Assembly (NCBI GenBank): GCA_900074885.1
Contig: FJUW01000018.1
Coordinates: forward strand, 379,748-443,747
Reading direction: 5' to 3'
Source of the DNA: Rhynchosporium graminicola
Lineage: Eukaryota > Ascomycota > Leotiomycetes > Helotiales > Ploettnerulaceae
Length of the DNA: 64,000 bases
Shown one piece after another: positions 3,711-27,280 of this stretch (the first letter of the stretch is position 1; every line of letters starts with the position of its first letter). The notes below the pieces were generated by a model. That model searched no databases and was not told the origin of the DNA. It was given only the letters and a program-made list of their open reading frames with translations. The position numbers and the translations under genes are program-made.

Positions 3711-5353
3711 ATGGCTCCAAGGATAGTTGAAAGATTCAGGCTTCGCACTGAGCCTGGATCTTTTGCAAGTGTCAGCGGAGGACTCTCCTCAAACAAGGAT
3801 CTCGATCCGGTACCTTTCGAATCTAACGAGCGAACATGGACCTGGCCTTCACTTCTAGGGTTCTGGGTAGCAGAAGCATTTTCCATATCCATGTATCAAG
3901 TTGCGAGTTCATCGATCACAAAAGGCTTGAGTCCTGGACTTGCCATTACAGCCGTACTTGTTGGTCATCTTTTGGTTTGCATTCCAGCGATGTTAAATGG
4001 TTACATTGGATGTATCTATGGTATCAATTTTCCAGTGCTGATGAGATCGACATTCGGCGTCTACGGTGCATATTTCGAAGTATTCGTGCGAGGAGTCGTA
4101 GCATGTATTTGTGAGTACTGGTATTGATACAATAAAACCGAAGGCAGAGACTGATAAATTCCAGGGTTCGGTACCCAAAGCTTTCAAGGAGGACAGTGCA
4201 TTCAAACTATGTTACAAGCAATTTGGCCATCTTTCAAAAGGTTCCCAAATCATACTCCAGTCAGTGCGCACGTTACTTCGGCGCAAATGCTGTGCTTTTT
4301 CCTCTTCATCATCGTCCAGCTACCTCTGCTCTGGTTGCATGTGTCCAAGTTGAGGTATTTATTCATGGCTAAGACGATCATAATGCCAGTTTTTGGTACG
4401 ACTCTGTTTATTTGGGCTTTAGTCGCTGGTTAGCCACTACCTCGCTTCCGCTTAGAAACAGCCGTTGATACATTATACAGCGAAAGGATTTGGTCCGACT
4501 TTCTCAAAAGGTACCGACATCGTCGATGGTACGCCTGTTGCAGTAGTCTTCTTCCAATGTGTAACGACAACCATATTTCCAAAAGCTACGTTGGACTTGA
4601 ATATGCCTGATTTTACACGTTACGCCAAATACCCGCGCCAAGTCTTCTGGACGCAAGCAGTCGGCCTTTGCGTCCTTGTCAATTTTATGGGATAATCGTG
4701 CTGCACAATTCTTTTCGGCACTGTGCTGGGCATTCGCAGTGATCGGCACCAATATTTCAGCCAATTCGGTCTCCTTTTTTAACGATCTGGCACTTTGGTT
4801 TCCCAAGTGGATCAATACTCGAAGAGGCGCTTACGTCTGCTGCATATTATCTATTGCTGCAACACCATGGAATATTCAACATAGTGCTGCATCATTTTCT
4901 GCATTCCTCGGCGGATACGGCATGTTTGTTGGTCCGATAGCCGGCATCATGATGGCCGATTTCAGGGTCCTACGTAATCGTCACCTGAACCTTGCGTCAC
5001 TGTATCTCCACCCTGATATTTACAGTTTCTTCCATGGGTTCAACCTCCGTGCATTTCTAGCTTTTGCTTGTGGTATCGCGCCTAATCTGGCAGGACTCGC
5101 GAGAGCCACAGGAAATCTGAGTGTGCCCAAGACAGCAACATATGTTTACAGCCTGAGCTGGGTTGTTGGTACATTTGTTTCGTTCGTGATCTACATAGCT
5201 GCAGGCAAAATATGGCCAATAGAAGGGAAGCATGAGGAAGTTGAGGTGATGGAAGGTGTAGATGGGTCCAGTATGGCGGTAAGTGACGAAGAGGGTAGAG
5301 CAACTGGAGATAGCAAGGTCAAGGCATGTCAGGGTAGCAAGCCAACGATTTAA
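3711..5353 (+). pseudogene. NCS1-family nucleobase/hydantoin/allantoin transporter, disrupted by a frameshifting deletion
   Basis: This is a Fur/Dal4-type NCS1 (nucleobase-cation-symport-1) permease, a plasma-membrane symporter for uracil, allantoin, hydantoins or related ring compounds. Exons are 3711-4110, 4165-4428 and 4481 onward; both introns have GT-AG ends and keep frame. Family hallmarks are TWTWPSLLGFWVAEAFS near the N-terminus, WFGTQSFQGGQCIQTML across the first intron, GPTFSK, LNMPDFTRYA, and NRAAQFFSALCW followed by GTNISANSVSF. The frame breaks at about 4687-4694. After VLVNFMG the frame hits TAA (4693-4695), while the following conserved segment WDNRAAQFF continues in the next frame. 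Relatives as I recall them have roughly 25-35 extra residues between these points, so coding sequence is missing and no intron can restore it. The downstream half stays open to TAA at 5351-5353. It lies at the edge of the hydantoin-type cluster. An assembly error could mimic the lesion. Confidence 0.85.
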
Positions 5354-6974
5354 GTGTGATGCCTTGCAACGCGCTATTCGGCTATGTCTCAAGGAGTTAC
5401 AGAGGGCTCAGGAATACACAATTTGCTGGGTGTTAGAAGCTTTTTAGATCGGAGTTGGAGATCCACGGACGACTCTCTTATTTCAAACCCCCCCTTTGCC
5501 TCCCATTCCAACCTTCAGTAATAAAATGCAAAATAGAAATGGAATTCGTTGAAAACGTTCGCTGATCACTCATTGATTGTTGAGCTACTTGGATGCAACT
5601 TTTCGATCATGGTCGGAATTTCGATCTTGGTCGAAAATATAGACTTTGTAAACTCTGCCCTCTACGTCTTTCAGGGCCTGTCAAAGAGTCGTAATTCAGC
5701 ATGATTAATAGATTGATTTGGGTCTGAGGCAAGGTAATACTTAATCACACCAAATTTTCAGGCCACAGCTAAATCGCCATGCGCCAAAATTCTAGTAACT
5801 TGGCGAGTGCATCTAGAGAACTACCTACCCCTCCCATACAAATTTATACTAGAGGGCACGAGTTATTTATATATAATGAAACATTTCATAATTAAGGTAT
5901 CTTGTTACCCCTAAGGCTAAGGATCATAATTGAGGTTATTCAGAGACTTAAACATCGACTGCAATTGCAATGCGAAGGCTTTAGAGAAGGCACGTGGATA
6001 GGTATAAGCTAGGTACATCAAGGGAAAGGGCTATATGCATAGCATAGCGTCAATTTATCATTCAGATAGTATGGTAGATATCACTACAGTGAGTGTACTA
6101 ACAACTTAGAGAAATAGTAATTATGGGGTAGGAGGTATTTATCCAAGATGCCGAGTATAAGGATAGTTTGATAATAAATTCGTCTAAGGGGGCGTAGCAG
6201 TTATGCAGTCTATAAGATATAGTTATGCATATAAATCTTAGTAGTGATAAATGCACGTCGCACTTTCAGCTTGCGTGACTAGTGATGGCGATTTAGTTGT
6301 GGCCTATAATAAAATAAGAACGATTGTACTAGGTGGTGAGAACAATTTTTTCGAACTATTAATAGAACTTGGTTTTGATATTGTAGAAGTACAAGAATTA
6401 ACCCCTGCCTCTACATACGTACGATTTTTCTAAGTCAATCTTTTCACCGATCAGAAGCGGTATGCGTAGGGACGACGGTACTTGGCTAGATAGTATCGAT
6501 ATCAGAAAAAAGCAGCCGATTCTATCGAAGCTGAAATCACCCTGGTAAGACAAAGAGTTGCGAACTCAATTGAGTGACTTAGATATTGGTTCAAGTCAAA
6601 ATCTTTTAGGATTTTTGCGATACTACTATGATAATCAAGTAAAATTAGTGGAGGCCTGAAGTGCTTTTGTGACTTTGATCATCTTCGCGCAAAAGGCTCA
6701 CATGAAGTTTTAGTTTTATGTGAAATATATGTCGGGATAACCTCAAATTGAGTGGTGGGCCTCCAATTCGCTTGGCGCCTGGGATCTGCCCCTCCTGCTC
6801 GGTTATGAACCCCTCGACTATCTTGGAATAGGCCGAAAAGCGCAAGCAGATGGACTTGCAAAAAAGGCAAGTTGAGGTGGAGGGCTCTACGTAATCTCAT
6901 CAGGACAAGGCTATGTGCTTGATCTATCCAGCATGATGAAGAGAAAGAATACCAAAAACTTAATTTGGAGGACT
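5354..6974. other. AT-rich island without protein-coding genes
   Basis: No gene is supported here. The stretch 5800-6450 is very AT-rich with many TA steps. The longest open frame, about 60 codons at 6251, has no recognisable motif. The pol III T-run serving the neighbouring tRNA lies inside its right end. The composition differs from the flanking genes and would fit a degraded repeat. Confidence 0.5.
6954..6958 (-). terminator. Pol III terminator (T5) of tRNA-Trp
   Basis: On the minus strand a run of five T residues lies 16 nt beyond the 3' end of the tRNA gene. That is the expected position and length for a eukaryotic RNA polymerase III stop. Confidence 0.65.
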
Positions 6975-7047
6975 TGAACCACACCCGATTTGAACGGATA
7001 ACCTTTCGATCTGGAATCGAACGCGCTGCCAGTTGCGCCAGCGGTCC
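6975..7047 (-). tRNA. tRNA-Trp(CCA), intronless
   Basis: A 73-nt cloverleaf folds on the minus strand. The acceptor stem is GGACCGC paired with GTGGTTC (two G-U pairs) and an A discriminator. The D stem is GCGC/GCGC, the anticodon stem TTCGA/TCGAA has loop TTCCAGA giving anticodon CCA, and the T stem ATCCG/CGGGT has loop TTCAAAT. The internal promoter boxes fit the A-box (TGGCGCAACTGG) and B-box (GTTCAAATC) consensus. A T5 run follows 16 nt downstream. No intron is present. The gene lies alone in an AT-rich stretch between the transporter and the amidohydrolase gene. Confidence 0.88.
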
Positions 7048-8017
7048 TTCTTGCAACAACTATTTCGATCAACGAACCATATTATTGCAGATTGCACACG
7101 TTATTGAATGCTATACTGCAATTTCTGCCCTGTGCCAAGACTGCACTAGTCAGGTGACATAATAGTCGTCGTAACGAAAGCCTCGAGAATAAATAAGAGC
7201 GAATGCCAGAAGTTATACCCGCAGGTAACTAACACGCAAAGGCATAGAGAAACTTACTCGTTGGCGTCCTTGACTCGAAAATTTCTATTGCCTTATGACA
7301 TTTGTTTGCAAAACGTTAGTTCCCTAAACTTGTTCTGTTAACAAACTTAAGGGTAATTAACTGCTAGGACAGGATTTACCTTTCAGTCTTTGGTACAAAA
7401 GTCATCCAAATCCACATGTTATTGCTCATCTATTCGTGTACTTAAGAATTGCATCGTCAAGGTTAAACTGTATTGATAACACTTTGTGAGCGACCTTCGA
7501 AATGGCACTTTCGGAACCAATTCAACCAAGGAAATTTTCCAAATCAACCGAAAACTCCTCTGCTGGATTCGTGAGCGGTTGAATAATAAAGACACATTGA
7601 AACGTGATATCTCATCAACACTTGTGTAGTGCCAGAGCGAATAGAGGCTTTGAATAATTCTTTGTTGGGGGACAGGTGTAGACATGAATAAGCAAAGAAT
7701 CCTTCGGATGAATGTGAATACCTAGCTGATTTTGACAAGCGAGAACGCCAAATCCCAATATGGATAATATTTTATTCCTCGACCAAAAGATAGAAACATC
7801 TTTTGAAACTCGAGCGTAGTATTAAATAATAGTCAAAAATTTCATTGAAGTAGTTCTTAAAGATATCCGAACACTAGAAATTAATCAATCACTATTTCTT
7901 TAGCAACACGCTCTTTGTTGAATCCGGCCACCTTTGCCTTCGACGGAGAGCCAGGCAACCAGCCGCACTAGCGCATCACATGAATAACTACTCTCTGTTT
8001 ACCCCTAGTGTAATTTC
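7048..8017. other. Intergenic, no gene seen
   Basis: This AT-rich stretch has only short overlapping open frames without motifs. The part near 7950-8017 is presumably the 3' flank of the amidohydrolase gene on the minus strand. Confidence 0.45.
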
Positions 8018-10169
8018 TTATCGCCAGTAATCCCTTTCCCCGTTGAGCATTCCTGTAGCTTCCTGACCGATCTTGCCCACCACAATTCTACCTTTCCCCC
8101 TAACCAAGAATTTTCCATCCCCAACACCACCAATCACACCACCATTATCCAGATCCCAAGCAACCTTTCCCCTCAGGATTGTGTACCTTGGCCAGTTCTT
8201 CACAGTCATACCCTCATACGGTGTATAATCAACACAATGATGAAGCGACTTTTGCTCAATCACTACTCCGCCCTCGAGTTCACTCTCCGGATACCATATA
8301 ACCAAATCAGCATCGCAACCTGGTGCAATATTACCCTTGACACCTTCCAAGCCATACAATTTTGCTGGATCGGAGCTCGTCAGCTGAACGAATCGTCGCA
8401 GAGTCAATCGGCATGTCGCCGCTTCTCCTGCATGGCTGAACAGCAAGGGCAATCTTGTCTCGACACCAGGCACGCCGTTCGGAATATCCTTGAAAACCAT
8501 AACCCCATCTCTCAGTCCTAATCTCTTGCCACCAGAGTGATCGTAAGTAGAGGGTGCATGATCTGAGCTGAAGGTTGTGAAAGTACCATTCGCAATGCCA
8601 CGCCACATTGCTTCCAAATCTTTTGGATCGTGGCGTAAAGGCGGGCTACACACACACTTTGCACCCTCGAAGGCATCTTGCTGGCTTCCTTTCAATCTCT
8701 CGCTTAAAAGGAACAAATATTGCGGACAAGTTTCAGCATGAATGGGTAGCATCCTCGTCTGGGCCTTCCGTACATGCTTCATGGCAATTTCCGAACTCAT
8801 ATGTACGATCAAGATCGGAGTGTCAGTCAACTCTGCTAAACTGATGATACGGTACGTGGCTTCATTTTCGGCAATCTGAGGACGTGCAATGGCATGGAAG
8901 TACGGGTCTCCATGTCCGGCTGCTTCCAAACGAGAGGTAATGAGGGATATGATGTCGCTATTCTCGGCATGTACCATGGTTGTGAAGCCTAGCGAGCGAG
9001 CGGCCATCAGAACGTCAAGGATTTCAGAGTCCCCAAGCTTGAGAGGCTCGTATGTCATGTAAAGCTTGACACTTGTAATGCCCTGAGACATGAGAACCGG
9101 GAGCTCTTTGCTCATAATTTCCGGAGTCGGGTTTGTGAGGATAAGATGGAATCCATAATCGCAATAGCTCTGGTCTTTGGCGCGAGTATGGTATTCTTCG
9201 ACGGTAGGAAGGACCGTGTTTTCGGATTTTTCCTGGGTTGCAAATGCCAAAACGGTTGTATTTCCTCCAGCAATAGCACTTCGACTTCCTGTAACGAAGT
9301 CGTCACCTGTAAGGGAATTGTCTTGAGCTAGGTGGACGTGACTGTCGACTCCGCCGGGTGTGACATAAGCCCCTATGGCATCGATGATTTGAGTATTTGC
9401 ATCTCGGGGTAAAGATGTACCCAAGCAGGATATCTTGCCACCTACAATACCGATCTCAACGCCAAGGGAAAGAGTATCGCTAGCAGTGACCTGAAATCAT
9501 TAGCAAAGATCTCGCTTAGTGCAATGAAGGGTAAAAAGACAAAAATAACACGCCACAAGGTACCGTAAAATGTAGGGATAGTCGCGAATCCCCTGCACGT
9601 TACCCGAGTATAACGACCTTGGATGATCAGCTTTTGAAGCACATCTGAACTGAGACAGCGAAAGCTTGAGTTGATAAAAGAATACAAAAGCACAAAAACA
9701 TACACCAGCAGGTATTCGCGGGTGGTCACCCACCCAACCACCAATCTGCCGATCTGGTGCTTGTTTGTGTATGGCAGAGCGGACGGGATGCCTAGTTCTC
9801 ACCAGTCTATGATCGTATGTGAGAGACCTTGGTATGTTTGCGCATCTACTCAATGTGATAGAAGTGACGCTCGTCAGCTTCAGACCAGACAGAGCCAGTT
9901 AACGGCCTCAACCTCATCGGCTTCGACAAGATCGGATTCTTGATGAAGTCTTAAAGCTTAGATTGAGCTTCTTCGCGGTGAGGCTTTGCAGCAGAACAGA
10001 TTTGTGTAAGGGACGTGCTATAATGACATCGAAGTAGTACTATTACTGGTCATGAGAGCCAGTGGTACCTCAAAAGCAACGCATGTTTGCAAAAAGCTAG
10101 AATGCCGAAATGATAGTACTCAGAACTCACAATGATGCCATTTGTAACGACCAAATCGAATCCCATCAT
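8018..10169 (-). CDS. D-hydantoinase / dihydropyrimidinase-family cyclic amidohydrolase
   Basis: This is a metal-dependent cyclic amidohydrolase that should open a hydantoin or dihydropyrimidine ring to the N-carbamoyl amino acid. The model is exon 1 10131-10169 (13 codons, beginning with two ATGs) and exon 2 8018-9490, joined by a 640-bp intron (minus-strand GTGAGT...TTTCAG), giving 503 aa. The junction reads TNGII|VTASD, the usual first beta strands of the family. Predicted metal ligands are all present: H64 and H66 (GGVDSHVHL), carbamylatable K155 (SVKLYMTYE), H187 (MVHAENSD), H243 (LIVHMSSE) and D323 (FSSDHAP). CPQYLFL and GVPGVETRLPLL are further hallmarks, and length is normal. Spacing and motifs favour hydantoinase/DHPase over fungal allantoinase, but the substrate is inferred. 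It is head-to-head with the carbamoylase, which would take its product. The long 5' intron is odd for this genome. Confidence 0.88.
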
Positions 10170-11212
10170 GTGCCGGTATATGTCTCGTCCACCTTTTCAA
10201 AATTGCGAGCGCAAATAGTGATGCGAAGCAGGACCAGGTCAACCAGTAGGATTAACCTCAAGGAACTTTGACGGGCCAGAATTGCAGAGCAAAGCCAGGG
10301 CGACGGCGACCTTACCCAATACAACAATCATTCCATTACCCCCACTCTAGCCGATAGATTCCAGATGTCTTCGACCCGCGAACCCGACGTCGTCAATTTT
10401 AAATGGACGTCTTCTCCGTTTTCCCCGTCCTCCCGTCCTCCAGCCCGGTCCCGGTCCGCCGACGAATCGAGCTAATTCATTCATCATCATAAAAGTAACC
10501 TCGGGTCTCCGGAGTGCGTGCAGAGTGCGCCGTCGGGCAAGCAATATTAATCGGATCGCCCCACCCATTACCGCACGCAGATACGCTTGTCTCGATTGAG
10601 ACTTGTTTTCTTGCTCTCTCGCTTACTAGACAGACTTTACCCCTTTTCAACTCAATAACACAGCTCTTCATTCCCGATAGTGGGCTGTGCACATGAGCAG
10701 TAACTTAACAGTGGCTTCAAGGCCAGCTAAAAACCGGAACACCCAGCAGGCAAGGACGGCTCAATCTGAGACTTGGATTCATCTATCGAGCTACAGGCCT
10801 CGTGTTGCGGAGACGATGCTCTGCCCGCCATACTGGCCGCTTTGTAGAATAACGGAACGGGAGATCATGGGTAAGGCTGAGTCTCGAGAATATAGTTATC
10901 TTTGGCCATAGTAATCATCCGATAAGTATCCCACTCTTTCCATCTGCTTCAATTGATTGTATCTTTGGCCATCGTACTCGAATAAGTTTCCCACTCTCTC
11001 CATTTGCTCCAGTTGGTTTTGTCGGCTTTTGTGTTGGCTTTAAGTCATCGGTATCCGTCGTCCTTCTACTATCGTAGAGCACACACTTGTTTTTTCTCTA
11101 CACAACCCTCATATCCTTTGCCCATCTCTTCTGCCTCGGGCTCCATCGTGATTTGCTTGAAAACGAGCAATCAGTCAGCCCATCTAAAGAAACACCTAAT
11201 CACCACTCCACC
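10170..11212. promoter_or_regulatory. Divergent promoter between amidohydrolase and carbamoylase
   Basis: This 1.04-kb region separates the two divergent start codons. It contains GATA-type motifs (CGATAG at 10352-10357 and 10675-10680; GATAAG at 10921-10926; its complement-strand form AGATAA at 10896-10901), which are candidate sites for an AreA-like nitrogen regulator. It also holds a short tandem duplication at 10897-11020. No coding frame is convincing. The regulatory role is inferred from position and motif only. Confidence 0.5.
10897..11020. repeat. Two-copy ~62-bp imperfect tandem repeat in the promoter
   Basis: Copy 1 (about 10897-10959) and copy 2 (about 10960-11020) share TATCTTTGGCCAT, then ATAAGT.TCCCACTCT, then CCAT.TGCT at the same spacing. 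GATAAG is intact in copy 1 but is AATAAG in copy 2. The array ends about 190 bp before the carbamoylase ATG. Confidence 0.8.
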
Positions 11213-12259
11213 ATGGCACGCACACTCACAATCGCCGCCGCTCAAATGGGCCCTGTGCATCTCACATCCACACGCCCAGAAACACTTACCCGACTCCTCA
11301 CACTTCTCAAATCAGCTTCCTCTCTCGGCGCCCAAATCGTCCTCTTTCCCGAGACGGCACTTACTACATTCTTCCCGCGAAACCTGATCACATCTCCCTC
11401 GGAGCTAGAGAGCTATTTCGATTCCGGCTCCACACTCCTCACATCGCCTAATACAGCACCTCTGTTCAGCCTCGCTAAAGATCTCAATATTGACGTCAGC
11501 ATTGGCTTCGCTGAGCGTGACGACGATGGCAAGGGGTACAACACCTCTGTGTACTTCTCTGCTAGTAAAGGCGAGATTGTTGCTAAGTACAGGAAAGTAC
11601 ATCTCCCTGGGACGAAGGAGCCATTCGAGAATCCAGACGCAGTGAATCAGCTTGAAAAACGGTACTTCGAGCCGGGAAATCTAGGATTCCAGGCTTTTCG
11701 CGCGCCGGGGTTAGTAGAAGGAGTGGTGAAGAAGGACAGTCCTGGTGCAGATGCTGATGTCAAGGGACGCGGAGATCCGATTCTGGGGATGATGATCTGT
11801 AATGATCGAAGGTGGGTAGAGGGGTGGAGATGTTATGGTTTGCAAGGTGTTGAGCTGGTATTGTGTGGATATAACACTGCCGGATATGCACCTGATCTTT
11901 GGGGGACGAGGAAACCCATGACCCCTGAAGAGGCGGAGATGGATGCAGTATTCCATCACAAGCTATGCATGCAGGGAAACTCGTATATGAATAGCTGTTT
12001 CTCGGTGAGTGCTGCCAAGGCGGGGTTGGAGGATGGGGGATACGATTTGATCGGAGGGAGTTGCATCACTTCACCTGAAGGGCATGTTTTAGCAGAAGCA
12101 AAAACTAAGGAGGATGAGATTGTGTTTGCGGAAATCGATCTTGAGGATTGTAGACAGGGAAAGGAGAAGACTTTTGATTTTGGGAGACATAGGAGGATAG
12201 ATCAGTATGGTCCTATAACGGTTCAGAGTGGTGTTGTAGAGCCTGAGCTGCTGGAGTAG
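11213..12259 (+). CDS. N-carbamoyl-D-amino acid hydrolase (D-carbamoylase), nitrilase superfamily
   Basis: This cytosolic nitrilase-superfamily enzyme should cleave N-carbamoyl-D-amino acids to the D-amino acid, CO2 and NH3. It is intronless and 348 aa long. The start at 11213 is chosen because it sits in CCACCATGG and MARTLTIAAAQMGP matches the family N-terminus; the frame is open further upstream. The catalytic triad is visible as E47 (LFPETALTTFFPR), K128 (KYRKVHLPG) and C196 (MMICNDRRW). LEKRYFEPGNLGF, CGYNTAG and FGRHRRIDQYG also follow bacterial D-carbamoylases closely. A loop of roughly 20 residues (about 168-188) before the Cys strand is an insertion relative to the bacterial enzymes I remember. 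The two neighbouring genes encode the enzyme making its expected substrate and a regulator. Beta-ureidopropionase is the main alternative, but the triad surroundings fit D-carbamoylase better. Confidence 0.9.
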   Translation: MARTLTIAAAQMGPVHLTSTRPETLTRLLTLLKSASSLGAQIVLFPETALTTFFPRNLITSPSELESYFDSGSTLLTSPNTAPLFSLAKDLNIDVSIGFAERDDDGKGYNTSVYFSASKGEIVAKYRKVHLPGTKEPFENPDAVNQLEKRYFEPGNLGFQAFRAPGLVEGVVKKDSPGADADVKGRGDPILGMMICNDRRWVEGWRCYGLQGVELVLCGYNTAGYAPDLWGTRKPMTPEEAEMDAVFHHKLCMQGNSYMNSCFSVSAAKAGLEDGGYDLIGGSCITSPEGHVLAEAKTKEDEIVFAEIDLEDCRQGKEKTFDFGRHRRIDQYGPITVQSGVVEPELLE

Positions 12260-12613
12260 AAGATGTATGTGAACGGACTGATAGGCCAAAAGAAATATTG
12301 GGTTTCACAGAAGCAAAGTGCTTGCGGCGAGCCTCTACTCACTTCAGTAGGCATTGGAGGAATTGGTGCCTCCAAGTCATATCAGAGACCGAAATACATA
12401 AATTAATACAATCAAGAAGTATAAGAAGGTTCGAGTACATACAGGAAAGACCTCGTATCCTGGCACTTGCTCACGAGATGGTTTAGACCGAAAAAGAGTA
12501 CAGTTGAGTGTAATACTGCAGACTGTAGTTGTAGAACATGAGCAGTCACTGGCCCCTTTGGAGACGTGTGTGCCTCTGATCCCTGGACTCCTCATAACTC
12601 CATACCTATTGGC
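12260..12613. other. Intergenic between convergent genes
   Basis: This 354-bp gap lies between the ends of the carbamoylase and the transcription factor, so it holds both 3' flanks. No further gene is seen. Confidence 0.5.
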
Positions 12614-14906
12614 CTATCCAGCAGCCGGATGGGTTGTTCCGTTTTCCAGAAGCAGGCCATCTAATCGTATCAATCCAAGACTCATCAATCCATTCCCAGT
12701 ACTCCCACTGCCTATCCGCATAGCCCATCTCCAACGTGCCACTAGACCATCAATTTCAGTTGTCTCGACATCATTTTGAGATGTAACAAGAAGTTGCATG
12801 AGAAAGGATGATGCGATGGCGAAATTGGCTCGTGACCCTGAACCTGGTTAGTTCGATTTGAAATGATGGAATGAGAGGGATGCGTACACGAATGCCAAAA
12901 TGCGTCCAACGATCCTCTTCCCAGATTCTCTACGAACTCTACGACTTCCTTCGCACATTCTTTTGCGCCAGCTCTAACGGCAAGTCTGCCGTCAACTATA
13001 CTACGATCTTGTTCTTCGGCACTTGACAGGTTCTCCAATGGTCGGAGGAGAGCTCGAAAGAGTGTCATCGTGGCAACTATGTACGCCAGAGATAGTGAGG
13101 GGTTCCCACTTACCCGAGTATCCACGCGACTATCAAAGCGACCTGATTGGCGCATGGCAAGCGCAGGTGGTAAGGAGTCTTTCCAATCCGTCAAGCTCTT
13201 CCGTAACGAACGAGCAAGATCTAAGGAGAGATTAAAGTTCTTGGAAGTCCTTTGTGTTGCTCTGATGGTGTAGTATGAGCCCATGATGTCGCTAAGGATG
13301 ACAGTCAACTCCACAAGAAGACGGAAATGGTTGCTGTCCGCATCAGGCTCCAAAAACCCAGGGACAGCCGTGGAATTTGGATCAAGAGATGGTGGCTCTA
13401 GATCGGAGTCGAGAAGAGGAAGGACGTCAAAGTCATCTGTCTTGATATGGCTTGGCATGCCTGCCCCTAAGGATGCCCATTTGTCCATAATGAAGACTGC
13501 GTAAAAGAGTCGTTTTCGTAAAGTCATTTCCCAGGTTGGTATGCTGCTCCAGCCGCAACATTCCCTCTGAAGGCCTAGCGAATGCGCTAGACTAACGGTC
13601 CATCCTACCAGACTCATCTTCCAAGGCGTGTCTGTGGTGTAGCGATTCGTGGGTGCTCTTTGCAAGAGCAGAAGACATGCTTGCAGGGTTGCTAGTCTTG
13701 GAGTGTGTAACTCCTGCATGATATAGAGCCATGTTATCCGGAAAAGTTGATGTGCAGGTGGAGGCGAGTGAATAAGAGTAGTACTGAGTAAATCATCGTA
13801 TAACATGAATGGCAGAGAGGAGGCATATATAGCCGAAAGAAGAGAAAATGGTAAAGTTTGCAGTACCGAAGGTAATACAGGTCCGTTTGGGCAAAGCTCG
13901 CTTTTTGATAAAATGGGAAAATATGGGTATACATATCGCAAGAAAAGACCAATCAAGCGGAGAGCCTCTTGCTCTGTGAACATGCCTTCAATGTCCTTAC
14001 GTGCTTTTTGCAACACATGTTCTTCGGCACGCGGTTCAGCCTTTTGGGCTAGACTATCGTCCGCCAGCATGAACACCACCGGCGGCTCAGATCTTTCCGA
14101 TGACAGGCTATCATGATTCATGGAACGTTGAATCCGTCTATAAGTCAACTTCGATATCGTACACTCGTCGTTGGTGTCATATTTGCAATACTTCAACAGG
14201 TATGGAGTGGACTCGCCCGTTTCTCCTATAAAGCGTGCAGAACGGGATGTCCGCGAGTCTAATGGCGCGATCCTTATCCCTCCTGATAGCAGGTAAGGAT
14301 CCATATTGAATATTGGAGAGGCATCACTGTGATTTAATTGTAGCTGATCGGGTGATGAAAGGGCAGGGTCGTGACCACTCAGTCCATTGTAAGACTGCTC
14401 TTGATTGAACTGGGCAATGAAGCCTGGGCTCAATGGAGTCGCCGAGACATCGAAGTGCTGATTCGAAGCTGTAAATCACAAGCACATGTCAGCCCCATTC
14501 TTTCTGAGCAAGATAGTGGTGTATGTAAATGTCCCAACCCATCTGCTGTGCCATATTCCAACACCTCCCCAAGCTAGGCCGACTCACCTGAAGCTGCCTC
14601 CCTACTGCCAATCGAGGAGGCATTCGGTCTCCTCTTCTTTTTTGGCCGCTCGAGAAACGTGCACTCCCGGCCATGAGCGGAACATAAGTTACATGGTGGA
14701 CTCTCGTCGATTTTGCAAGCTACCTGCCTAGCCCGACAGAAGTCGCAAGGCCTGTACTTGCGCGACTTGTACGATCTGGGACCCGGCTGCACAGCTTGGG
14801 CTGGCAGGGCTGCAGTCGAAGTTAATGCCAGACCATGGCCGTTGTAATAATCGGTGGGCGAGACTGATTGTTGCGCGTGGACATAGTGATGTGAGTGTGA
14901 CTCCAT
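12614..14906 (-). CDS. Zn2Cys6 transcription factor with fungal_trans domain
   Basis: This is a nuclear DNA-binding regulator and the likely pathway-specific activator of the cluster. Exons are 14588-14906, 12888-14468 and 12614-12837, which splice in frame to 707 aa. The last intron (50 bp) is supported because removing it restores WHSWSRANFAIASSF, a usual C-terminal segment in this class. The zinc cluster is C54-C57-C64-C72-C75-C82 (starting CDFCRARQVACK), followed by a basic linker RPKKKRRP. The fungal_trans region begins near EALRLIGLFLRYVYPYFP and continues through RLFYAVFIMDKW. The chosen ATG is the first one close to the zinc cluster; an in-frame extension upstream to 15074 exists but is low-complexity. 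It is divergent from the racemase across 764 bp and tail-to-tail with the carbamoylase. Confidence 0.88.
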
Positions 14907-15670
14907 GTTGGATCGCGAGTCTCCTTCCAATCTGTAAGTAAAACCTTCGAGGCACCGCTGCCGCCGTCGCTCCCCTGCAGCCCGCGCTACAGATGCCGTG
15001 TATGTAGGTAGATAGATAGCTCTAGGTCTTGGCTTGTGGAGGTAGGCGGGGTGATATTCACGAGTTTCGCGCAACTCTTGTTTGCCGTGCCGTTACGTTA
15101 CGTTACGTTCACTAAGTCTTACGTATGTAGGGTATGGTAAGGTAAGGTATGTAAGGTAAAGTAGGGGGAGGTAGGCAGGTAGGTAGATAGGTGTCTTGGT
15201 CATCAATCGGCCATGGGAGGCGGCGGTCTGCCGTTCATCGGTCGCATAGAAGATTAATCGCGCTGAGCGCGCGGGGCAGCGTGAACTCTCGCAGACCCTG
15301 CATTTGTTCAGCGCGATTGTAATTGAGGATCCTTATTTCGCGGTTCAACGGCGGCCAAAGTTGCCCCTTATCTGGGGAAGAACGGGGGGTGGGGGACGAC
15401 GGCGGGAATGACGCGGCGACGAGATGAGATGAGATGGGATGAGATGGGATGAGAATACCCTCGTGTACCTACCTACCTACCTACCTACCTGCCTACCTAG
15501 GCAGGTATGTAGTCCAAGGGAGAGCCGTCTCTCGACTGGCCGGTATGTGCGTGTCCTGGAAGGCTTGATGTGTATCTGATATCTATTGCTTGTGGTCACA
15601 GCTCAATATTCATCTCCTGCGAGCTTCACTCAAGATCGATTGGCAACCTGAGCAGCTTTAGTCCTGCATT
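14907..15670. promoter_or_regulatory. Divergent promoter between transcription factor and racemase
   Basis: This 764-bp region separates the divergent regulator and racemase starts and is the natural place for joint control. It is rich in microsatellites: GTTAC/GTAAG-type runs at about 15090-15180, GAGAT/GGGAT repeats at 15420-15453 and ACCT repeats at 15466-15499. No specific operator is identified. Confidence 0.45.
15420..15499. repeat. Microsatellites (GATGA)n and (ACCT)n
   Basis: Pentamer repeats of GATGA/GATGG type are followed at once by about eight ACCT-type tetramers. They lie about 170 bp before the racemase start. Confidence 0.85.
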
Positions 15671-16468
15671 ATGACTGATACAATATCACTTCCATCGGTG
15701 ATCGGGTCATCGACTCGTTCAATAAACATCTTACTTATCAACCCCAATGGAACGTCGTCTATGACAGAGGCATGCCTCAGATCCCTCCAAGATACACTTC
15801 CACCATACTGTACTGTCACAGGCTTCACATCTCCACACCCAACACCGTCAGCTGTCGAAGGTCATCTAGACGGGGTCCTTTCTTCAGCGGCAGCAATTCG
15901 GGCAGTAGTGCCAATTGCCCTCAAATACGATGCGTTCCTCGTAGCTTGCTTCAGCGCCCATCCACTCATCAACGCATTGAGAGAAGAGCTTTCCGCTCCA
16001 GTTATCGGCATTATGGAAGCTGCTTTGTATTCTGCGAGGATGCTAGGAGGTCGTCTGGGCGTAGTGGCTACCGGAGGGAGAAGCAAAGTTATGCACGAAG
16101 ATGCCATTCGGAACTATGGTCTTGCCGGCTTCTCGGTTGGCTGCGAGACCACGAACTTGGGAGTTCTGGAGCTGGAAAATTTACCCAAGGACAAAGTCTT
16201 GGGACTAGTAGCTGAGGCTGCGAAAAGATTGGTTGAGGAGAAAGGAGCCGATTGCATTGCTCTAGGTTGTGCAGGTATGACTGAGATGAAGATCAAATGC
16301 GAAGAGGCTGTAGGCACCAAGGAAGCCACCGCCCAAGTCATTGATGGAGTTGGTGTTGGTATCCAGATTTTGATTGGTTTGGTTCGGGAAGGGCATGTCA
16401 CGGCAAAAGGAGGGATTTTCAGGAGTTCTCGACAGGGAAGGAAGGCTAGAGGGCAAGACTGGCTGTAA
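15671..16468 (+). CDS. Asp/Glu/hydantoin racemase family protein
   Basis: This predicted cofactor-independent racemase should interconvert enantiomers of 5-substituted hydantoins. The gene is intronless, 265 aa, with ATG at 15671. The N-terminal ILLINPNGTSSMT is the family signature. The two catalytic cysteines of the two-base mechanism are visible at C93 (FLVACFSAHP) and C200 (IALGCAGM). VIGIMEAALYSARMLG, GVVATGGRSKV and VIDGVGVGIQIL are other conserved blocks. The same family contains yeast Dcg1, of uncertain function and linked to allantoin genes, so allantoin-related activity is an alternative. The neighbouring hydantoinase-type and D-carbamoylase genes make a hydantoin racemase the best reading. 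The last ~20 residues are basic and family-atypical. Confidence 0.85.
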   Translation: MTDTISLPSVIGSSTRSINILLINPNGTSSMTEACLRSLQDTLPPYCTVTGFTSPHPTPSAVEGHLDGVLSSAAAIRAVVPIALKYDAFLVACFSAHPLINALREELSAPVIGIMEAALYSARMLGGRLGVVATGGRSKVMHEDAIRNYGLAGFSVGCETTNLGVLELENLPKDKVLGLVAEAAKRLVEEKGADCIALGCAGMTEMKIKCEEAVGTKEATAQVIDGVGVGIQILIGLVREGHVTAKGGIFRSSRQGRKARGQDWL

Positions 16469-25932: not shown

Positions 25933-27280
25933 TTAAAACGCACTGAATGCATATTGCACAGCGGCCCTTAAATATGAGTCAGCAGTGTCCTGCGTCGTAG
26001 AAAGATCACAAACGTACCCGAGAACCAGAGTAGCACTAATACCGAGTAATGCCCGAGTCTTGATGCGCTCCTTCTTGAGCTCTACAACCTCTGTCTTGAC
26101 CTTCTTCGCAGGCGCTGGAATGAATTCATCCGTTCCGTCCTCGTTCTCTTCGTCCTCCACCTCTTCAACCTTTCGCTTGCTTCTCCGTGGGAGAGCAGCT
26201 GTCTCTTCCACTTGACCTTTGACGGCTGCCTCTACCATCTCCTTAGCCTTAGCGATCATCGCCTCGGTATCCTCTGGCAGGGGTAATTCAGCGTAGCCCA
26301 CAGGCATTTCGACCTCGACATGGGTGTGTGTGATCTCCGAGTCGGCCTTAACCTCGACATCAGTGTCTACGTGAACCCGGACCACGGGCTCCTCTTTCTC
26401 TAAACCCTCGTCCTTTGGCTCTTTCTTCGATTTGGCATCTGCTACCTCATTGTCGCCCTTGGTCTCGGCAGCGGCGGCCTTCAACGATTTATTGAAGTTC
26501 TCGCTAGCGGTTTGTACAGAAGGCTCAGCTGACTCTGATCTAACAGACTCCGAGGTACCTCTGGCCTTTCTTGTCCTTGTTGGAGCGGCTGTCTTTTTGG
26601 GTGACGCGATTTTGCTTGGAGAAGCTGCCCTTCTAGGACGCCCACGACTTGGGGTTGGCGCCACCAAAGATTCTTGTGGCATCAGAAAAGTTGGCGGTGG
26701 AGAGATTGTCTTTGGTGTGGCATCCTTAGTAGGGTTGGTCTCAATGGGAGTATTATCCAATAGCGCCTTGATCCAAGGGAGAATGTGGTATTCTTCGGCG
26801 AGTTCAAGAGCGTGGTGAGGTGGGATCCAGACATTACCGGCTGTCTCATCCGTGCTTGTTGACTCCAAACTCTTAATGTACTTTCTCTCAAGTTCCTCCT
26901 CGGCGACTTCGGCATATGGGAAGGTAGCCTTGAACATACCCGTTGCGCTGATATATCCGTCTTGACTTCGTCGCATCAAGAAGTATGATGCAGGCGAAGG
27001 CTTGAAGATGCCCGACTGGATTCCCTTAGGAAGAGGTGCTCGGAGGTGCGCATAGTCGAAAGTACCCAGGTTCTTCGGTTTTGTAGAGTTAGAAGTTCCA
27101 ACTTGACCGGCCTTGACAGTGAGGTCGGTTTGACCAAGTCGGCGGCGCGAAACGAGAACATCATCTACGTCGTGTTAGCTTTTGAAGCGCCATTGTCGCA
27201 TTTTGTCGCGTCTTACACTCAGGAACGGCCTCAGTCATCAGAGGATTGACCCTCTCTGGAAGCTGGCGAGAAAGCGGCAT
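25933..27280 (-). CDS. BQT4: Bqt4-like tail-anchored nuclear envelope protein with APSES/KilA-N-type domain
   Basis: Homologue of fission yeast Bqt4, an inner nuclear membrane protein that tethers telomeres to the nuclear envelope. Exons are 27217-27280, 26018-27164 and 25933-25966, in frame for 414 aa. The N-terminal domain (about 55-165) has FLMRRSQDGYISATGMFKAT, FPYAEVAEEELERKYI and VWIPPHHALELAEEY, which align closely with Bqt4 and with APSES-type DNA-binding folds. The middle is acidic and disordered with SP-rich and basic stretches. The last, 34-nt exon completes a C-terminal hydrophobic helix (LLGISATLVLGAAVQYAF), a tail anchor. Without that intron the reading would give a longer polar tail, so the splice is favoured. 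APSES cell-cycle factors lack such a tail anchor, which argues against Mbp1/Swi4-type function. Confidence 0.85.

Follow-up and report, generated by a model that had tools for sequence, protein, structure and literature searches.

We analysed a 64,000-nucleotide window of the genome of Rhynchosporium graminicola (C49:379748-443747, in a 55.3 Mb assembly of 121 contigs); Rhynchosporium is a leotiomycete crop pathogen and barley-scald fungus. The window carries open genes for a hydantoinase/dihydropyrimidinase, a D-carbamoylase, an Asp/Glu/hydantoin racemase and a Zn2Cys6 regulator, next to a broken NCS1 permease gene. The three enzyme genes are linked in other fungi as well, and appear to form a real, conserved set resembling the bacterial hyu cluster, with the carrier part broken in this genome. 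With a probability of about 0.62, we read the set as a fungal hyu-like pathway that would convert racemic 5-substituted hydantoins to D-amino acids and has lost its carrier here. An earlier note on this DNA had described five adjacent genes of one pathway; the identities and key residues of the amidohydrolase, carbamoylase, racemase and regulator hold, while the permease gene, whose break that note overlooked, is not open.

The four open genes form two divergent pairs. The hydantoinase gene (8018–10166, minus strand) faces away from the carbamoylase gene (11213–12259, plus strand; a single exon for 348 residues) across 10167–11212, and the regulator gene (about 12614–14906, minus strand; about 709 residues) faces away from the racemase gene (15671–16468, plus strand; a single exon for 265 residues) across 14907–15670. 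From these positions, each of the two intergenic stretches could be a shared promoter. Pfam matches are strong for the racemase (PF01177, E 2.6e-51), the carbamoylase (PF00795, 4.6e-45) and the amidohydrolase (9e-23, with 8e-126 on TIGR02033). The carbamoylase protein is identical to R. graminicola WAI453_003426 at 347 of 348 residues, and no second close copy of hydantoinase, carbamoylase or racemase was found in the genome.

Linkage in other fungi was assessed from three protein searches, with the best 120 proteins listed per family, the longest contig kept for each protein cluster, and contig sizes compared between lists for exact equality. Synteny is deduced here from equal-sized contigs and locus tags rather than from the relatives' genomes, and all counts are lower bounds. 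Exact matches linked carbamoylase to hydantoinase 15 times, carbamoylase to racemase 15 times and hydantoinase to racemase 7 times, against chance means of 0.30, 0.45 and 0.35, respectively, when sizes were jittered by up to 5%. At least 27 contig sizes are common to the lists (one being R. graminicola itself), and 12 of them are under 60 kb. Since sharing a megabase contig is not adjacency, the case for adjacency comes from these 12 short contigs and from the tags. Where the tags of two partners are visible in one genome, their numbers differ by no more than two in 7/7 cases: consecutive triplets in Claussenomyces (M1818_003942/3/4) and Cirrosporium (M1834_008512/3/4), and pairs in Coleophoma (07939/40), Xylographa (003701/2), Lambiella (006490/1), Scytalidium (g2660/g2662) and Cudoniella (g12825/g12827). 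All three enzymes share a contig in Coleophoma, Claussenomyces, Amylocarpus, Cirrosporium and one further case, a contig of 9,614 bases. In the saprotroph Aureobasidium subglaciale a single contig holds the carbamoylase together with the hydantoinase. Lasallia pustulata, Aureobasidium pullulans and Friedmanniomyces endolithicus, whose contig sizes differ between lists, and Parastagonospora, whose tags come from different strains, were counted neither way. In Phyllosticta citricarpa, carbamoylase and racemase are fused in a single protein (P0121, 600 residues), with CN_hydrolase at 6–303 and Asp_Glu_race at 358–568 joined by a short linker. The earlier note had named co-occurrence in relatives as one test of its proposal and a lack of it as one ground for giving it up; by shared contigs and tags, hydantoinase, carbamoylase and racemase do co-occur.

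The carbamoylase was aligned with the best 120 listed fungal matches (121 fungal sequences in all) and with 80 bacterial sequences, whose loci were picked by similarity and fetched with a fungal carbamoylase alignment. The window protein is 59–99.7% identical to the fungal set and 49–53% to the bacterial one. Its closest structures in the PDB are D-carbamoylases (E 1.7e-68), while entries for beta-ureidopropionase match at 1.4e-5 and 2.6e-5 and an entry titled nitrilase or beta-ureidopropionase at 9.6e-15. The catalytic triad claimed in the earlier note is present (Glu47-Lys128-Cys196), and in reference numbering (Glu47, Lys127, Cys172) it is kept in 121/121 fungal and 80/80 bacterial sequences. 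His129, Asn173, Arg175 and Arg176 are invariant throughout both sets, and His215 is kept in 114 of the 121 fungal and all 80 bacterial sequences. Among the recognition residues His129, His144, Arg175, Arg176 and His215, whose roles are described in available parts of PMC3546935 and PMC11503299, the window protein keeps 4/5. We regard assignment to the D-carbamoylase family, which is made from sequence, as firm; the substrate and the D-selectivity, with action on N-carbamoyl-D- and not on L- or beta-amino acids, are inferred.

Of the 80 bacterial loci, 36 have a hydantoinase-family match, 42 a racemase and 17 both, with no NCS1 match (E up to 1e-5) within the sequence covered. The bacterial hydantoinase matches are mostly 24–37% identical to the fungal protein, rising to 41–44% in four loci (L028, L033, L096 and, near the end of its locus, L074). 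L028 (Achromobacter), whose carbamoylase is the best match among the 80, and L033 (Bordetella) have the gene order carbamoylase, LysR, hydantoinase, racemase.

The racemase retains both catalytic cysteines, as had been claimed (Cys93 and Cys200; 79 and 184 in KpAllR), and its best PDB match is the allantoin racemase 5lfd. According to PMC12661438, hydantoin/allantoin racemases can be told from OpaE, a biosynthetic enzyme, by four pocket positions: Asn/Asp12 (100%), Met17 (67.7%), Thr/Ser118 (84.2%) and Thr119 (55.6%). We compared these positions across 16 fungal relatives (15 of the best 120 listed plus the fusion) and 20 racemases from the bacterial loci. The window protein has Asn, Met, Ala and Thr, keeping 3/4; at the third position the fungal relatives have Ala in 7 and Thr in 7, and a racemase paralogue elsewhere in the genome, on C62, has Asn, Met, Ser and Thr. 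Only the L028 and L033 proteins (Asn, Met, Ala, Ala) among the 20 bacterial racemases share Met17, the other 18 having Val or Cys apart from one gap. By these residues the pocket appears closer to the hydantoin/allantoin type than to the OpaE or NozR type, which speaks against an OpaE-type enzyme; they do not discriminate between hydantoin and allantoin. The fungal racemases aligned and the C62 paralogue also carry one more residue behind the first cysteine (the HP insertion) than the 20 bacterial proteins do, so the racemase need not share the origin of the carbamoylase.

The amidohydrolase claimed in the earlier note was correct in identity and in its metal ligands (GGVDSHVH, Lys154, two His and Asp), but its start had to be moved to 10166, upstream of a 640-nt intron (10130–9491) that separates exons 10166–10131 and 9490–8018. 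The spliced 502-residue protein is identical to R. secalis P0122 at 496 of 502 residues and has a complete binuclear-metal motif, GxxDxHxH, Lys, two His and Asp, in which carboxylation of the Lys is predicted. Also present are the Tyr, Ser and Asn (in KLYMTY, CSPPLR and IPNGVPGVE) that PMC3546935, in the part available, names for ring recognition in Sinorhizobium (S.) meliloti dihydropyrimidinase. TIGR02033 (cut-off 393.25) is passed by exon 2 with 420.6 bits and by the R. secalis orthologue with 427.4, and a bacterial D-hydantoinase in the PDB matches at E 4e-93. P0122 is annotated 'related to DAL1-Allantoinase' yet scores as a hydantoinase/dihydropyrimidinase, and is likely mislabelled. The intron contains a 5S rRNA-like sequence on the same strand as the gene (9697–9820, minus strand; Rfam RF00001, 56 bits), with non-standard pairs at 12 positions and 34 further matches in the genome.

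The regulator, too, is of the type proposed. Its Zn_clus match (PF00172, 20.9 bits) is just below the cut-off of 21, the cysteines are spaced CX2CX6CX7CX2CX6C, and Fungal_trans (PF04082) scores 83 bits; the Pfam E-values are 2.5e-23 and 4e-4. In the best of six splice models the introns lie at about 14587–14469 and 12887–12844.

Taken together, these families suggest a route in which the racemase would turn the D- and L-forms of a 5-monosubstituted hydantoin into each other through a 1,1-proton transfer between two cysteines, the hydantoinase with its binuclear metal centre would open the D-enantiomer to an N-carbamoyl-D-amino acid, and the Cys-Glu-Lys carbamoylase would release the D-amino acid with CO2 and NH3, which might serve as a nitrogen source. 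The Zn2Cys6 factor, divergent from the racemase gene, probably controls the pathway.

The NCS1 permease listed in the earlier note reads as a broken gene. The 5′ part (3711–4695, plus strand) has exons 3711–4110, 4165–4428 and 4481–4695 with two ordinary introns and regular splice sites, and its spliced frame gives 292 residues before a TAA at 4693–4695. It covers PF02133 positions 2–99, 100–184 and 188–246. Positions 271–440 are found in a different frame in the 3′ part (4685–5353, plus strand), which begins LWDNRAAQF and runs to a stop; the four permease pieces match at E 1.1e-23, 1.7e-13, 2.2e-7 and 9.9e-37. Against a paralogue on C42 the first part aligns at 55–76 and the second from 112. 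Some 24–28 residues are absent at the break (24 by Pfam positions, 27–28 by ungapped extension against the paralogue), and the truncated protein would also be without the last ~220 residues, including the segment GTNISANSVS. A dispersed MITE-like (miniature inverted-repeat transposable element-like) sequence, bounded by terminal inverted repeats of 21 nt, lies between this remnant and the hydantoinase gene (5760–6305); its inverted arms are 95% complementary, and the genome holds 55 matching pieces, the window copy included, with partial copies 69–85% identical. A tRNA-Trp (CCA) gene (6975–7047, minus strand) also lies between the remnant and the hydantoinase gene.

One could suppose that the break is an assembly error near 4683–4690 and that the whole five-gene cluster works, as the ordinary splice sites of the permease and the open state of the other four genes might suggest. 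We consider this improbable, though the least improbable of the alternatives, because the gap of about 24–28 residues combined with a change of frame is no single-base slip. If the carrier is indeed disrupted in this isolate, the enzymes would depend on substrate taken up in some other way or formed inside the cell, or the pathway may be in early decay. With all three enzyme genes open beside a broken carrier gene, we also entertain, as a speculative extension, a eukaryotic hyu pathway, kept in several classes of Pezizomycotina and in one lineage with its carbamoylase and racemase joined in a single chain, that serves internal hydantoins, such as ring-closed carbamoylated amino acids, and not scavenging.

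Several findings weigh against a hyu-like pathway. No open frame spans the whole NCS1 profile, given the stop at 4693, the frame change and the missing residues, so that this carrier is unlikely to import anything in the isolate at hand. His144 of the characterised D-carbamoylases, a column placed with an alignment to 6le2, is Gln in 121/121 fungal and 80/80 bacterial sequences; with Gln in all 201, the pocket departs from the textbook form, firm as the family call is. Residue 57 of the window carbamoylase (codon 11381–11383) is Asn, whereas the position is taken by His, Tyr or Phe in the remaining 120 fungal sequences (His in WAI453) and by Trp in 80/80 bacterial ones; this is possibly a sign of relaxed constraint. 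Neither carbamoylase nor racemase exceeds the cut-off of any NCBIfam model (best for the carbamoylase, TIGR03381, 102.4 against 410.25). The hydantoinase, at 562.1, stays below the cut-off of 647 for its top model, PRK13404, and its best PDB match is yeast dihydropyrimidinase (2fty, E 4.5e-105). Finally, a linked partner is seen for 25/120 carbamoylase, 17/120 hydantoinase and 17/120 racemase rows, and the remainder (95/120 for the carbamoylase) is uninformative. The joint function put forward in the earlier note thus stands in part: the linked enzyme genes of other fungi, the fusion and the bacterial array support it, while the disrupted permease, the Gln at 144 and the nearest PDB relative of the hydantoinase count against it.

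That nearest relative favours instead a dihydropyrimidine pathway of the PYD type, in which a dihydropyrimidinase would be followed by a beta-ureidopropionase, with racemase and permease as bystanders. Both top NCBIfam models for the hydantoinase are titled dihydropyrimidinase, similar hydantoinases often act on dihydropyrimidines as well (PMC3546935, in the part available), and a beta-alanine-synthase-like gene lies on another contig (L025, C113:175000-184500; below the TIGR01879 cut-off, PDB 1r3n at E 2.1e-39, one exon). Against it, the cluster hydrolase is far nearer to D-carbamoylases than to beta-ureidopropionases in the PDB, and by established chemistry a racemase has no role on unsubstituted dihydropyrimidines. 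Nor was a dihydropyrimidine dehydrogenase detected in the genome, where the sole place matching Fer4_20 (PF14691) scores as a glutamate synthase (TIGR01317, 666.8 vs 447.7 bits; Pfam Glu_synthase). We judge this pathway unlikely, and for want of a detected dehydrogenase we reject the view that the cluster serves ordinary pyrimidine catabolism alone; the gene on C113 leaves a role in dihydropyrimidine salvage open.

Still less probable is an allantoin-side pathway made up of an allantoin racemase, an allantoinase-like hydrolase and a DAL-kind NCS1 carrier. The racemase match to 5lfd and the DAL1 label of the R. secalis orthologue favour it, as does the range of Aspergillus NCS1 carriers, which take allantoin among other substrates (PMC10788122, available part). 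On TIGR03178, however, the hydantoinase scores 218.9 (cut-off 357.85), in contrast to the 427.4 of its orthologue on TIGR02033. As it lies below all three allantoinase cut-offs listed and above that of TIGR02033, we rejected an allantoinase identity. Contig C75 holds a gene with allantoinase as its best model (one exon scores 253.9 bits, short of the cut-off), and with the second racemase on C62 the cluster is probably not needed for the allantoin role. A D-carbamoylase, moreover, has no place in what is established of allantoin breakdown. Equally doubtful is a secondary-metabolism or detoxification cluster acting on a hydantoin-like natural product: a fungal racemase of the same superfamily, OpaE, works in biosynthesis (PMC12661438, available part), but the identified cluster genes include no synthase, and the window racemase, unlike OpaE, retains the Asn and the Met typical of hydantoin racemases, on which ground an OpaE-type enzyme was rejected.

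Beyond the cluster, 10 of the 15 open reading frames of at least 220 residues in the 20–64 kb part of the window were compared with Pfam; five matched, none to a synthase. A KilA-N domain protein is encoded at 25933–27174 on the minus strand; adaptin, Nuf2, DinB-like and wyosine-base proteins are among its neighbours in the set of ten, and the surroundings look ordinary.

Hydantoin routes to D-amino acids are known from bacteria and industrially used, and their natural role is debated. Among the papers listed by searches of an open-access library, with subscription papers mostly outside its reach, none showed a fungal hydantoinase-carbamoylase-racemase cluster. If the hyu-like pathway is real, its conserved fungal version would provide tractable hosts in which to ask for the natural substrate of hydantoin pathways, and the fused carbamoylase-racemase would be a possible biocatalyst. 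Some of the Asp/Glu/hydantoin racemases that fungi, mostly plant-associated ones, are reported to have gained by transfer would then have a possible function as well; PMC5169069, which reports these gains, saw no phenotype for a racemase of this kind in Candida glabrata, and its main text nowhere contains 'carbamoyl'.

Four known systems bear comparison with the Rhynchosporium cluster. Mhp1 and the Fur-type NCS1 transporters belong to the same family as the permease (PF02133), whose copy here ends at 292 residues with the rest in another frame. The yeast dihydropyrimidinase (PYD2) pathway supplies the nearest PDB relative of the cluster's hydantoinase, and is unlike the cluster in that Rhynchosporium has no detected dihydropyrimidine dehydrogenase, a hydrolase of the D-carbamoylase branch and a racemase. 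In the Saccharomyces DAL cluster, which includes DCG1, a cyclic amidohydrolase, an NCS1 permease and a hydantoin-racemase-like gene are clustered as in Rhynchosporium; that cluster has allantoinase, allantoicase and ureidoglycolate genes, whereas Rhynchosporium has a D-carbamoylase and a hydrolase of dihydropyrimidinase rather than allantoinase type. The fourth system is that of the bacterial hyu clusters, among them those of Bradyrhizobium BTAi1 and ORS278, which encode a D-carbamoylase, a D-hydantoinase and a hydantoin racemase (PMC3546935, available part), and those of L028 and L033. The fungal genes differ from these in being divergent, some with introns, and in having a Zn2Cys6 regulator, an NCS1 remnant and a racemase that is 25–34% identical to the bacterial ones and bears the fungal HP insertion. 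What they share is the three enzyme families and a regulator gene of their own, and the linkage of hydantoinase, carbamoylase and racemase that marks a hyu cluster is found both in the window and in other fungi.

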